Below are positions 12,497 to 21,476 of a DNA stretch of 24,161 nt, piece by piece. Both the position numbers and the translations under genes were made by a program. How positions within the stretch are numbered: the stretch's first letter is position 1; every line of letters begins with the position of its first letter. The stretch is taken from positions 1-24,161 of IMG/VR virus record IMGVR_UViG_3300020470_003748. One strand, given 5' to 3'. The notes beneath the pieces are model-generated. The model ran no database searches, was not told the origin of the DNA, and saw only the letters and a program-made list of their open reading frames with translations. This DNA comes from a virus.

Positions 12497-12658
12497 TTAA
12501 TCTGGATAACCGTCATCGTCGTCTCTGCCTTCATATCTAAATCCAAAGTCAGATTCTTTTCGTAGGTATGCTTCTGTATCAGCATACACTTCTGTTTTAA
12601 TCTCCTCTAGCAAAACTTCGAGGTTTTTGATTAGGAGTTTGAGTTTGTCTCTCTTCAT
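12497..12658 (-). CDS. Small helical protein upstream of thyX (53 aa)
   Basis: ATG 12658 to TAA 12497 gives MKRDKLKLLIKNLEVLLEEIKTEVYAD followed by TEAYLRKESDFGFRYEGRDDDDGYPD: a basic amphipathic helix and an acidic tail. The start overlaps the stop of the upstream 2OG oxygenase by ATGA, and the stop lies 2 nt before the thyX ATG, so it fills the gap exactly. I recognise no family. The tight coupling makes it very likely real. Confidence 0.75.
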   Translation of the reverse strand: MKRDKLKLLIKNLEVLLEEIKTEVYADTEAYLRKESDFGFRYEGRDDDDGYPD

Positions 12659-13152
12659 TGTGGTACACCTTCAAAAATGTTGAAGTTAAAGTTGATGACT
12701 ACTCGTCTGTTTGTATCAGTACAAGTAACACCAGCATGTTCTAAATTAGAATCAAAGACTACAAGTCTATTTGATTTACTATCTATTCTAGTACCATCAC
12801 GGAAAATTGTATAGCCATTATTTGTATTCATGTACAAAATGGCAGTAATACAATTAGGAAAATCTGTATGAAAGTCATTGTGTTGAGGTTCTTCCGTTCT
12901 AACAGTAAGGTTTGCCTTACATCTAGTCACAGAAGAAGCATTCAATCCTTTGAACACAGGTTGAACCAGAGACCAATACTGACTTCTAGGTTCATACTCC
13001 TGATAAAAACAATGAGTGAATTGATATTTGCCATCATCAGGCAATACAATCCCCTCATTATAGTTCCATGGGAAATGCATTCCCATGATTTGTTCTTCTA
13101 AAATGTTAAAGTCCTTTTGATCAAGGAACCCATCAAGTATCTGAGTTTTCAT
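12655..13152 (-). CDS. 2OG-Fe(II) oxygenase (first of three)
   Basis: The double-stranded beta-helix residues are visible: EPQHNDFHTDFPNCITAILYMN gives the HxD pair (His95, Asp97), and NRLVVFDSNLEHAGVTCTDTNRRVVINFNFN gives the distal His139 and the 2-oxoglutarate-binding Arg (149 or 150). Such phage dioxygenases are common in cyanophages; the substrate is unknown (DNA base, protein or small-molecule hydroxylation are all possible). It overlaps the next small gene by ATGA. The chain of 165 residues starts with MKTQILDGFLDQKDF, typical of the prolyl-hydroxylase-like subgroup. Confidence 0.88.
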   Translation of the reverse strand: MKTQILDGFLDQKDFNILEEQIMGMHFPWNYNEGIVLPDDGKYQFTHCFYQEYEPRSQYWSLVQPVFKGLNASSVTRCKANLTVRTEEPQHNDFHTDFPNCITAILYMNTNNGYTIFRDGTRIDSKSNRLVVFDSNLEHAGVTCTDTNRRVVINFNFNIFEGVPQ

Positions 13153-16446: not shown

Positions 16447-16600
16447 CTAAGTACCTGATTATTTCGTCTCTCCATTCCATAAGTTCATTAAAGCATTCCT
16501 GATTATGTGAACACTGACGTAGTTCATGATCAGGTTTTAATACACTTTCATAAAAAAGACCGAGAGCATCTCGGCGTTTCTCATGTTTAATAGAATCCAT
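16415..16600 (-). CDS. Small charged helical protein (61 aa)
   Basis: MDSIKHEKRRDALGLFYESV, then LKPDHELRQCSHNQECFNEL and MEWRDEIIRYLDERRNEEFND: soluble and helical with two cysteines (CSHNQEC). It overlaps the upstream membrane protein by 14 nt and the downstream gene by 32 nt. No family recognised. Confidence 0.7.
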   Translation of the reverse strand: MDSIKHEKRRDALGLFYESVLKPDHELRQCSHNQECFNELMEWRDEIIRYLDERRNEEFND

Positions 16601-16865
16601 TAGGTTTCTCCTCTGTGTTTAGATTGTCTTTCATTAACTCTACAGCATCCCACTGCTTAGCCATTTCATCTGTCAGATACAGAACTCTTTTCTCATGAAT
16701 CTGATCTCTCTCCAACAAATAGCCAATGGTATCAGACAATCGTTGCCTATTACCTTCCTTATCAATGAGAAAGATACTATAAGTATTTTGAAATTTTTTC
16801 TCAAGTCTAAATTTAATGTACACGAAGAGTACAAAATTCAGGAGGATTACAAATAAGTAAATCAT
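16587..16865 (-). CDS. Single-pass membrane protein (92 aa)
   Basis: Residues 1-18 (MIYLFVILLNFVLFVYIKF) form one N-terminal transmembrane anchor followed by basic residues, so the rest should face the cytoplasm. That part (EKKFQNTYSIFLIDKEGNRQ and LSDTIGYLLERDQIHEKRVL) is helical and charged. The start overlaps the stop of the coiled-coil gene by ATGA. Unknown function. Confidence 0.75.
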   Translation of the reverse strand: MIYLFVILLNFVLFVYIKFRLEKKFQNTYSIFLIDKEGNRQRLSDTIGYLLERDQIHEKRVLYLTDEMAKQWDAVELMKDNLNTEEKPNGFY

Positions 16866-17122
16866 TTAACCTTGGAGAGGTCTTCAAATGTTAACATGTC
16901 AGGATCTCTTTGTCCAGCGGGAACAAACTTATATTCGTTATTCCATTTGAACGACGTGTTATTTAATTCATGTTTGACAACCTCTGCTACTGCTTCTGGT
17001 TCGTTCTCTAATTTTGCAAGAACCTGAGCAAGAAGTAATTTAACCTCATGTATCTCAGCATGGATGTCTTGATGGTGAAACCTCAGTGATTTTTCAATCA
17101 ATTTCTGAATTTTTTTCTTCAT
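16862..17122 (-). CDS. Coiled-coil-like protein (86 aa)
   Basis: I choose ATG 17122 (MKKKIQKLIEKSLRF); an ATG at 17134 in frame adds MLTV. Residues 1-50 form a His/Glu/Leu heptad-like helix (DIHAEIHEVKLLLAQVLAKLENE). The C-terminal part reads SFKWNNEYKFVPAGQRDPDMLTFEDLSKVK. A TATAAATA motif lies at 17141-17148, close enough that the start at 17134 would have almost no leader. No family recognised. Confidence 0.7.
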   Translation of the reverse strand: MKKKIQKLIEKSLRFHHQDIHAEIHEVKLLLAQVLAKLENEPEAVAEVVKHELNNTSFKWNNEYKFVPAGQRDPDMLTFEDLSKVK

Positions 17123-17140
17123 AACAGTGAGCATTCTCAA

Positions 17141-17148
17141 TATTTATA
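17141..17148 (-). promoter_or_regulatory. T4-late-type TATAAATA promoter candidate
   Basis: An exact TATAAATA on the minus strand lies 18 nt before ATG 17122 and shares bases with the stop codon of the upstream 34-aa ORF. This equals the T4 late promoter core. It would allow late expression of the coiled-coil and membrane genes from within the overlapped operon. Confidence 0.5.
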
Positions 17149-17248
17149 GGTCACTTAAGACACTAATCAGAAACAACATTACTCCGAAACCTAAGAAGTA
17201 GGCAAGGATAATGAGGAAACTTATCTCAGTGGGCAGTGCCGTTTCCAT
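17144..17248 (-). CDS. Tiny membrane peptide (34 aa)
   Basis: ATG 17248 to TAA 17144 gives METALPTEISFLIILAYFLG then FGVMLFLISVLSDL: one transmembrane helix of about 22 residues with an acidic N-terminus. It overlaps the previous ORF by 23 nt. Size and topology recall photosystem or cytochrome b6f small subunits, but no specific match is visible, and the ribosome site is weak. Confidence 0.5.
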   Translation of the reverse strand: METALPTEISFLIILAYFLGFGVMLFLISVLSDL

Positions 17249-17357
17249 CGTAGTCATCAGAGTCATAGTAATTATTCTCTCCTTTTAAAAACCCAAAGGT
17301 AAGAGTCGTTACAACAAAGGGTACGGAAATCCACATTAGAAAGTGTGCAAAGGTCAT
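17226..17357 (-). CDS. Tiny membrane protein with acidic tail (43 aa)
   Basis: ATG 17357 overlaps the preceding stop by ATGA. MTFAHFLMWISVPFVVTTLT then FGFLKGENNYYDSDDYDGNGTAH: one transmembrane helix and an acidic, Tyr/Asn-rich cytoplasmic tail. The coupling to its neighbour supports expression. Function unknown. Confidence 0.6.
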   Translation of the reverse strand: MTFAHFLMWISVPFVVTTLTFGFLKGENNYYDSDDYDGNGTAH

Positions 17358-17503
17358 GGGTTTGATGGGTCTAATCCTAGTTCAATAAGGTAATCTACCC
17401 ACCACTGTGGGTTCTTTTGTTGTCTCCACTGAGGCACTGGGACTCCTTTCTCAACCACATAGTATTGATGAAGGCTATCCTCGATAATCTGTGCGATCTC
17501 CAT
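17354..17503 (-). CDS. Small protein with strong embedded ribosome site (49 aa)
   Basis: The chosen start is ATG 17503 (MEIAQIIEDSLHQYYVVEKG), because the bases just upstream, GAGGAGGAAGAGGAG, make a very strong Shine-Dalgarno and longer readings lie inside the previous gene. The rest is VPVPQWRQQKNPQWWVDYLIELGLDPSNP: soluble, Trp-rich. The final codons overlap the next start by ATGA. Confidence 0.65.
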   Translation of the reverse strand: MEIAQIIEDSLHQYYVVEKGVPVPQWRQQKNPQWWVDYLIELGLDPSNP

Positions 17504-17690
17504 ACTCCTCTTCCTCCTCATCAACATCTGCATACGGGTTGTCCACATAGGGTCCTCGTTTTCGAAGGGGTTCTTTTCGAACATAGGCAGTTTCTTCATT
17601 GACGGCAGATAACCATACAGCAACTTTCATCACTATGTAAATGACAGCGATTGGCGAAAGACACGCCAATAGTATGAGGTTTTGTCTCAT
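17475..17690 (-). CDS. Membrane protein with polyglutamate tail (71 aa)
   Basis: An N-terminal membrane helix (LILLACLSPIAVIYIVMKVAVWL, about residues 5-27) is followed by a basic region (RKEPLRKRGP) and an acidic end (DVDEEEEEYGDRTDYRG). The start overlaps the 2OG oxygenase stop by ATGA. The Glu run provides the Shine-Dalgarno of the next gene. No family recognised. Confidence 0.75.
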   Translation of the reverse strand: MRQNLILLACLSPIAVIYIVMKVAVWLSAVNEETAYVRKEPLRKRGPYVDNPYADVDEEEEEYGDRTDYRG

Positions 17691-18157
17691 GTGTAGTAAT
17701 TTCCTGCAAGGACTACTCTCCCTTTAGATGTGTTAGGTGGGACAGCATGTTTGTAATCGGATGAAAATATAACACACATACCAGTAGCAGTTTCAATGGT
17801 TCTATCTTCAAAGACCAGTGGGGATGACCCGTCTGGAACCCTAACATAATACACGAAAGAATACGAACATGGGGTATGTGTATGGGGATCCGCATAATCC
17901 CCCTCATTGTATATAGCTGCCCACAATTCTGTGCCTGTGGGATTTATCTCAAATGTGGTAGTATCTAATACCCAATCACTTAATTCTCTAAAAATTTTAG
18001 GAAAAGTATCGAATCCAGTATGTTTTTCTACTACTAAACTACTTTCCTCAGGGGTTGCATCAGGCAACCAATCAATAAACTTCAGTAGTTTATCATTAAT
18101 AGTATCTGCATCTGGATGATACAGTACCTCTAAACATGGGCGTTTTCCAATCCCCAT
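17687..18157 (-). CDS. 2OG-Fe(II) oxygenase (second of three)
   Basis: The 156-residue protein fits the small phage family of 2OG-Fe(II) oxygenases (PF13759 type): ELWAAIYNEGDYADPHTHTPCSYSFVYYV carries His92 and His94, the segment PLVFEDRTIETATGMCVIFSSDYKHAVPP gives His137, and GRVVLAGNYY gives Arg147. The metal site is therefore HxH...H rather than the usual HxD...H, so either Fe is held by His92/His94/His137 or the acidic ligand is elsewhere. It lies in the middle of the small membrane-protein run and overlaps the next gene by ATGA. Substrate unknown. Confidence 0.82.
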   Translation of the reverse strand: MGIGKRPCLEVLYHPDADTINDKLLKFIDWLPDATPEESSLVVEKHTGFDTFPKIFRELSDWVLDTTTFEINPTGTELWAAIYNEGDYADPHTHTPCSYSFVYYVRVPDGSSPLVFEDRTIETATGMCVIFSSDYKHAVPPNTSKGRVVLAGNYYT

Positions 18158-18213
18158 ACAATAAAATATGCAATGGTAGCAAAAATAATAACAGCATTAA
18201 TAATAGTAGACAT
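18130..18213 (-). CDS. Tiny membrane peptide (27 aa)
   Basis: ATG 18213, preceded at ideal spacing by GGAGG, to TAG 18130: MSTIINAVIIFATIAYFIVW then GLENAHV. It is almost all one transmembrane helix. It overlaps the 2OG oxygenase start by 28 nt, in the manner of a leader for coupled translation. The strong ribosome site argues for expression. It might act as a small membrane regulator or mimic photosynthetic small subunits such as PetN. Confidence 0.62.
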   Translation of the reverse strand: MSTIINAVIIFATIAYFIVWGLENAHV

Positions 18214-20609: not shown

Positions 20610-20884
20610 TGTAAATCAATAGGTTGTAGATCAGATTCAGATAGAATTTTTTGTTCTGGAAGTTGTAAGTCAGGTTCCAGTTCAACATGAGCCACGTCTA
20701 CAGTTTGTGGTGGATGTGGCAAAAGAATTTTAGCATAGACTGCATCGGGATAGATGTTTAATATACACTCAACATCTTTGAGTGTTCCACAATGCCGTTT
20801 CTTTCCGTTCGATAAAGTCATTTCATAATAGTGTGGCATCTCTGACCGCACAATTTGATTTGACCTCTCTTTACTTAGAGTCAT
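20606..20884 (-). CDS. Conserved cyanophage-type protein (92 aa)
   Basis: MTLSKERSNQIVRSEMPHYY, EMTLSNGKKRHCGTLKDVEC and ILNIYPDAVYAKILLPHPP: a small alpha/beta region with HCGT..DVE.IL...P...Y...LPHPPxTVDV, then a proline/acidic tail (LQLPEQKILSESDLQPIDLQ). It overlaps the 2OG gene by 14 nt. Known to me only as a conserved hypothetical in this phage group. Confidence 0.78.
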   Translation of the reverse strand: MTLSKERSNQIVRSEMPHYYEMTLSNGKKRHCGTLKDVECILNIYPDAVYAKILLPHPPQTVDVAHVELEPDLQLPEQKILSESDLQPIDLQ

Positions 20885-21476
20885 TAGTTTCTGGAGCGTA
20901 GGATGTATTGAAACTAACTACAGTTCTATTTCCAATTTCAGTATCGGTTTTATGTTCTAACCAACTTGGGAATAGAATCAAAAGTCCTTGAGATGGCCAT
21001 ACGGTATTGAAACCAAAGGCATGTTGACTCTCAGCACCAGGCCTATAGAGTTCATTCATCTTGTAGGGTAACAAGGGACTTTTGAATAAGAGTGGAGCAA
21101 CATCCTGTCCATTTAAACAAGGATATAAAGCTCCACTAATAGCACTTCCCTCATGACGATGAAGTTCCAAACGTCCACCTGGCGGAGTGATATTAAACCA
21201 ACTCTCTACGATATCAACTGCATGAGTACCCAATCGATGACAATAATCATTGACACATTTCATTAATTCTGATCGTAGGTCAACCAAATTAGGATGACCT
21301 AGAAGATCAGCGACTGGACTGAATGTACTTTCACCACCAGAAACCAAATGGAATTGTCCTCTTTCAGTTTCTTCAATAATTTTTATTAGTGGCTTGAAAT
21401 CATAATATTCAAGATCATATACAGAGACAGGAGTTGGAAACAAATCCAACTCTGCCTTTCTCAATTCTTCAGACAT
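20871..21476 (-). CDS. 2OG-Fe(II) oxygenase (third of three)
   Basis: The 201-residue protein fits the PF13759 phage group: ELRKAELDLFPTPVSVYDLE at the start, then IVESWFNITPPGGRLELHRHEGSAISGALYP with His106 and His108 (again HxH), TVWPSQGLLILFPSWLEHKTDTEIGNRTVVSFN with His175 and Arg184. FPSWLxHxxxxxxxxxRxxxSFN is the hallmark. It follows the plastocyanin-linked 70-aa gene (TAATG overlap), so it belongs to the petE transcript. Substrate unknown. Confidence 0.92.
   Translation of the reverse strand: MSEELRKAELDLFPTPVSVYDLEYYDFKPLIKIIEETERGQFHLVSGGESTFSPVADLLGHPNLVDLRSELMKCVNDYCHRLGTHAVDIVESWFNITPPGGRLELHRHEGSAISGALYPCLNGQDVAPLLFKSPLLPYKMNELYRPGAESQHAFGFNTVWPSQGLLILFPSWLEHKTDTEIGNRTVVSFNTSYAPETNDSK

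Follow-up and report, generated by a model that had tools for sequence, protein, structure and literature searches.

Homologues of the NDH-1L subunits NdhP and NdhQ in a run of overlapping small genes of a cyanomyophage

Six overlapping genes in a cyanomyophage contig

The window, that is, the whole stretch of DNA analysed here, is a cyanomyophage contig of 24,161 bases (an IMG/VR record), which carries talC, petE and psbA in addition to phage replication and structural genes. An earlier note on this DNA claimed six overlapping ORFs, and all of them are present on the minus strand. Read from 18213 downwards, these are an ndhQ-like gene of 27 aa (18130..18213), a 2OG-Fe(II) oxygenase gene of 156 aa (17687..18157), the gene for p71, a 71-aa single-pass membrane protein with an acidic tail (17475..17690), the gene for p49, a 49-aa soluble protein with two predicted helices (17354..17503), an ndhP gene of 43 aa (17226..17357), and the gene for p40, a 40-aa single-pass membrane protein (17144..17266). 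As described earlier, no free spacer is left at the junctions, the successive overlaps measuring 28, 4, 29, 4, and 41 nt. On the same strand, the run continues into a predicted coiled-coil protein of 86 aa (16862..17122; ORF call and comparison with the related contig L003) and then into a 92-aa membrane protein with one N-terminal hydrophobic helix (16587..16865; ORF call, L003 comparison, and hydropathy). The four single-pass products are the 27-, 71-, 43-, and 40-aa proteins, with one hydrophobic helix each (maximum 19-residue Kyte–Doolittle values of 1.9–2.6).

The sixth product had been described as a 34-aa peptide. Its ORF exists, but the 34-aa start is only the third in-frame ATG, and the 40-aa form starting at 17266 is preferred because the orthologue in L003 has the upstream ATG only.

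In comparison with L003, synonymous change far exceeded non-synonymous change in every frame, also when the overlaps were excluded. At codons outside the overlaps, dN/dS was 0.17 for the oxygenase, 0.11 for p71, 0.08 for the 43-aa frame, and 0.13 for p40; it was near 0 for p49, for which dS is saturated, and approximately 0.29 for the 27-aa frame, which has few sites (18 free codons) and is the weakest case of the run. A dN/dS near 1 had been named as the sign of frames that are not conserved, and none of the six exceeded about 0.29. The six ORFs are thus real genes under purifying selection. The coiled-coil protein is 94% identical to its L003 orthologue (dN/dS about 0.05).

Homology to NdhP and NdhQ

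In the host, NdhP and NdhQ are subunits with one helix each, located on either side of NdhD1 in the distal membrane arm of NDH-1L. Both contact NdhF, NdhD being sandwiched between them, and the complex falls apart when either one is lost (PMC6992706; PMC4131877).

The 43-aa ORF (PHROG 2173) was retrieved from the 691 ORFs of the window by a host-only NdhP profile with E=6.4e-16, the runner-up scoring 0.39. In the PDB, a profile of 24 phage sequences matched the solved NdhP chains (E=3.5e-9 and 8.7e-8), with the plant NDH subunits PnsB4 and NDF6 among the weak lower-ranked matches; the window protein alone matched PDB NdhP with E=0.001. The phage profile also gave one match in each of 12 of the 12 cyanobacterial genomes searched (E from 1e-8 to 1e-14; for example, ...FFGTKGGYYDTDDYDGNGTAH). 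With 43 aa, one transmembrane helix, and the conserved C-terminal tail, the window protein has the form of NdhP. Phage and cyanobacterial NdhP (PDB 6khi chain P, 6hum chain P) are alike in length and in their single helix, and have in common the tail Y-[DE]-[ST]-x-x-Y-x-G-[ND]-G-x-[AS]-H. Most phage NdhPs differ from host NdhP by a 3-residue insertion of the KGEN type between helix and tail, which is absent in the hosts examined, and, unlike the host gene, phage ndhP shares about 41–56 nt with zwf or with another gene. On these profile matches, we identify the 43-aa ORF as homologous to the NDH-1L subunit NdhP. In a tree of 43 columns, phage and host NdhPs are nearly separate and the NdhP of P-SSM2 groups with Prochlorococcus; the tree neither demonstrates a single origin nor contradicts it.

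For the 27-aa ORF, which is preceded by GGAGG a few nucleotides 5′ of its ATG, a host-only NdhQ profile gave the sole significant match among the 691 window ORFs (E=3.2e-8; next 0.19). The same profile picked up a dozen or so distinct phage copies in a set of 24,224 ORFs from 169 loci. Since the profiles run on the window were made from host sequences only, the identification of both subunits is not circular. In the PDB, a phage NdhQ profile of two sequences had NdhQ as its only matches (E=0.29); the value was 0.0053 with seven sequences, and with 15 the top three matches were all three NdhQ sequences (best E=2e-4). Among the 12 cyanobacterial genomes, this phage profile found one NdhQ ORF in each of eight (E <0.01) and no match in one Cyanobium and three Prochlorococcus genomes (G006, G007, and G008). 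NdhP is present in these three Prochlorococcus, which may have lost NdhQ or have a version that is too divergent.

Phage NdhQ resembles cyanobacterial NdhQ (PDB 6khi chain Q, 6l7o chain Q) in its single helix and in the end [FL][IV]xWGLxxAY, and is nearest to sequences of the marine Synechococcus type. The helix-end motif W-x-L-x-x-A-Y takes the form VWGLENAH in the window, WGLTHAYG in L003, and WGLTHAYPG in hosts. The phage proteins differ in being about 27–30 aa long and in lacking the host N-terminal segment of about 15 aa before the helix (GIMKFxGADxP type or similar), which is absent from every phage NdhQ found. As this segment varies among hosts too, its absence is treated as a truncation and not as the loss of a defining motif; without it, phage NdhQ may not fully replace host NdhQ. 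The profile and motif evidence thus points to the 27-aa ORF as an NdhQ-like homologue of this NDH-1L subunit. The earlier suggestion that the small membrane peptides mimic photosynthetic small subunits therefore holds, by homology, for two of them, the 27-aa NdhQ and the 43-aa NdhP.

Gene order in relatives and the neighbouring genes

Phage ndhP is widespread, unannotated, and often overlaps zwf. A phage NdhP query matched 332 cyanophage records at a loose threshold of E <=1, and among 13 whole phage records tested, ndhP was found in nine and ndhQ in four. The gene is immediately followed by zwf in 84 of 131 cases, and in 65 it comes after gnd. It is present without annotation in S-SSM4, Syn33, Syn1, and S-ShM2, and ORF 253 of P-SSM2, annotated as hypothetical, is NdhP. 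Of the 31 ndhQ loci, 30 have ndhP within about 1.5 kb of ndhQ, and in related phages both genes lie near zwf, gnd, PTOX, petE, and talC. Among 80 contigs centred on p71, 18 have both genes and one has ndhQ alone; the association becomes weaker when the count is limited to contigs with complete flanks (six with both, none with ndhQ alone; p=0.10), and the contigs are not independent of one another. ndhQ and ndhP are not obligate partners, since ACG-2014i and ACG-2014j have ndhQ and no detectable ndhP. Both genes occur together in isolates of the ACG-2014f type, and S-SSM4, Syn33, and S-ShM2 have only ndhP.

The two genes lying between the oxygenase and ndhP, p71 and p49, are an invariant overlapping cyanophage pair. 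p71 (PHROG 2832, E=6e-39) occurs in 155 cyanophage isolate records, and p49 (PHROG 2075, E=1e-23), the start of which is nested in the 71-aa gene, directly follows it in 120 of 123 loci. Neither could be assigned as an NDH or photosystem subunit: p71 has no match in the PDB or in the 12 cyanobacterial genomes, and for p49 (AlphaFold pLDDT of 81), neither sequence nor fold comparison gave a convincing match in the PDB. No host homologue of the pair was found in these searches, a single 0.01 match inside a 383-aa frame being disregarded. The gene 5′ of p71 varies (gnd, oxygenase, ndhQ, zwf, PTOX, and others).

The oxygenase belongs to PHROG 81 and matches PF13759 (E=2e-9; score 38.1, cutoff 27); its TIGR02466 score of 43 is below the cutoff of 62.5. 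In an alignment with phage homologues, the iron and 2OG ligand pattern H-x-[HD]...H...R is found as H92-T-H94, H137, and R147, and with the expected residues present the enzyme is probably active. A structure predicted from the single sequence was unusable (pLDDT 32). The oxygenase start codon falls within the part of ndhQ that encodes the WGL motif, in TTGTATGGGGATTG. An oxygenase in the slot between ndhQ and p71 occurs only in the lineage of the window (the near-identical contig L002, plus L003 and L004), and five contigs (L012–L016) have ndhQ-p71-p49-ndhP directly adjacent, in most cases with TAATG as the ndhQ-p71 junction. The gene therefore looks like a sporadic insertion, an unrelated passenger. 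The window encodes two further 2OG-Fe(II) oxygenases (20871-21476 and 12655-13152), one of the HxH and one of the HxD type, which brings the total to three.

At the other end of the run, the order ndhP then p40 is the arrangement of the window's lineage, p40 occupying the place where most relatives have zwf. The start of p40 is nested in the ndhP tail, where one frame of GATGGAAACGGCAC gives DGNGT and the next one META. For p40, searches of the PDB, Pfam, and PHROG yielded no family above cutoff, and it had no match as a photosystem or b6f subunit. That its N-terminus (MTLMTTMETALP) is a leftover of zwf was also ruled out, since both MTLMTTMETALP and the Zwf N-terminus MTQMTMTETEP are the NdhP tail DGNGTAH read out of frame. 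With the next gene starting in the conserved 3′ ends of both ndhP and ndhQ, the cargo that follows either tail can be swapped. At the stop of p40 and 5′ of the coiled-coil gene, positions 17140-17148 of the window hold TATAAATA, which is similar to a T4-type late promoter; the counterpart in L003 is CCTAAATA.

Overlap with ndhP also bears on three short ORFs found in Syn33 (276 nt), Syn1 (303 nt), and S-ShM2 (306 nt), which Sullivan et al. (2010; PMC3037559) list as zwf remnants (T4-GC1021; L301–L303: NC_015285.1 102320-102595; NC_015288.1 160237-160539; NC_015281.1 39696-40001). Each of them shares 86 to 119 nt with ndhP. The resemblance to Zwf (E down to 2e-9) is essentially confined to this overlap, and outside it the match to Zwf is no better than E=0.9. 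On this sequence comparison, they probably represent an unrelated small gene with its start in the ndhP tail, for which too early a start was called, and the published remnants look like an artefact of an overlapping and unrecognized ndhP.

A proposed role in host electron transport

The case for cyanophages controlling electron transport in the host has mostly been built on psbA, petE, PTOX, and the pentose phosphate genes. We consider it likely that the run is a cyanophage auxiliary-metabolism cassette with NdhQ and NdhP, which sustains or re-tunes the NDH-1L of the host. During infection, the two phage proteins would insert into host NDH-1L and keep it assembled or re-tune it; most likely, they would keep or build the complex while host gene expression shuts down. 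Electrons from ferredoxin, provided by the pentose phosphate pathway and PSI, would pass to plastoquinone and then to the phage-encoded plastocyanin, and this sustained flow, alongside phage D1 and the pentose phosphate enzymes, would make ATP for phage replication. The starts of the following genes are nested in ndhQ and ndhP, and ribosomes finishing either gene may start the next one via the overlap; the oxygenase and p40 would be cargo exchanged at their slots. Both the incorporation of the phage copies into NDH-1L and its benefit to the phage are what we infer from homology and gene context.

Tight packing had been put forward as the sign of a functional unit. This argument does not stand against the base rate of such overlaps, which these phages show frequently: of the 63 adjacent junctions in 40 kb of S-SSM4, 28 overlap, including a run of six. 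The same base rate favours the view that the run is an ordinary packing of unrelated small proteins, with ndhP and ndhQ as mere neighbours in an AMG hotspot and no joint function. This view also draws on the widely varying upstream neighbour of p71, on ACG-2014i and ACG-2014j, and on the description of the zwf/gnd/petE/PTOX cassette of cyanophages as mobile in Sullivan et al. (2010; PMC3037559). The loci of relatives resemble this cassette in having ndhP beside gnd and zwf; ndh genes are not mentioned in the main text of that paper. However, ndhQ and ndhP encode two subunits of one subcomplex and lie at most about 1.5 kb apart in 30 loci, and we regard the absence of a joint function as rather improbable, though an option to be taken seriously. 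The idea, also from the earlier note, of a membrane complex modified by the oxygenase, in which the run is one unit and the enzyme hydroxylates a small membrane protein, fares much worse. Both in the window and in L003/L004, the oxygenase gene does overlap ndhQ and p71, and its HxH...H...R residues are kept. Yet it is found at only six of 123 p71 loci (three contigs), the restriction to one lineage and the five contiguous loci devoid of it point the same way, and gene overlaps are common in such genomes, all of which makes hydroxylation very improbable.

Two other explanations concern the subunit homologues themselves. For NdhQ, which has only 27 aa, mostly in one helix, and for which the first two-sequence profile reached E=0.29 only, one might suspect that a short hydrophobic peptide has matched by chance. 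This we find scarcely credible, given that the host-only profile singles out this ORF from 691 with the next best at 0.19, that three NdhQ entries head the PDB list at E=2e-4 with 15 phage sequences, and that eight host genomes each yield their NdhQ, with the WGLxxAY end common to both sides. Alternatively, phage NdhP and NdhQ could be decoys or dominant-negatives that take the place of the host subunits and modify or inactivate NDH-1L, for instance by blocking respiration or changing the partners of the complex, instead of keeping it going. The N-terminal segment missing from phage NdhQ and the KGEN-type insertion of most phage NdhPs, unseen in the hosts examined, would fit such a role; the core residues of NdhP (YYxSxxYxGNGTAH), which are kept under strong purifying selection, and the nearby psbA, petE, PTOX, zwf, gnd, and talC, usually interpreted as keeping up electron flow and the supply of NADPH, speak against it and leave it quite unlikely. 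It is doubtful, too, that NdhQ, NdhP, and the phage-only p71 and p49 together form a set for remodelling NDH-1L, as an infection-specific distal arm or an assembly factor; if they did, this set would reshape cyclic and respiratory electron flow.

On the favoured reading of a cassette that sustains or re-tunes NDH-1L, NdhP and NdhQ join the phage genes for photosynthetic electron transport, among which viral ndhP has already been reported. Viral ndhI, ndhD, and ndhP were proposed earlier from marine metagenomes (PMC3877843 and PMC10452541, citing Sharon et al., 2011); the available portions of these accounts do not describe NdhQ, nor do they note the widespread unannotated ndhP of isolate genomes. 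No report of viral NdhQ was found in the literature accessible without subscription. If phage NdhP and NdhQ do join NDH-1L, the virus would act directly on the complex that links ferredoxin to the plastoquinone pool. Even in genomes that have been under study since 2005, genes this small went unnoticed or kept a hypothetical label, as with P-SSM2 ORF 253 and the ndhP of S-SSM4.

Other small proteins were also observed in these regions. Another membrane family of about 27 aa, with the consensus MxSxLFVFAFIxLLVxGMELTWPxKYR, is encoded close to zwf, ndhQ, or p71 in numerous cyanophage contigs (for example, L067:4761-4859, L068:2396-2494, L260:941-1081, and L086:702-860). A protein of 70–75 aa (MRYxFAxSSFxRM...; for example, L283:2286-2501 and L282:2301-2504) is found in 325 cyanophage records, its start often lying inside ndhP.
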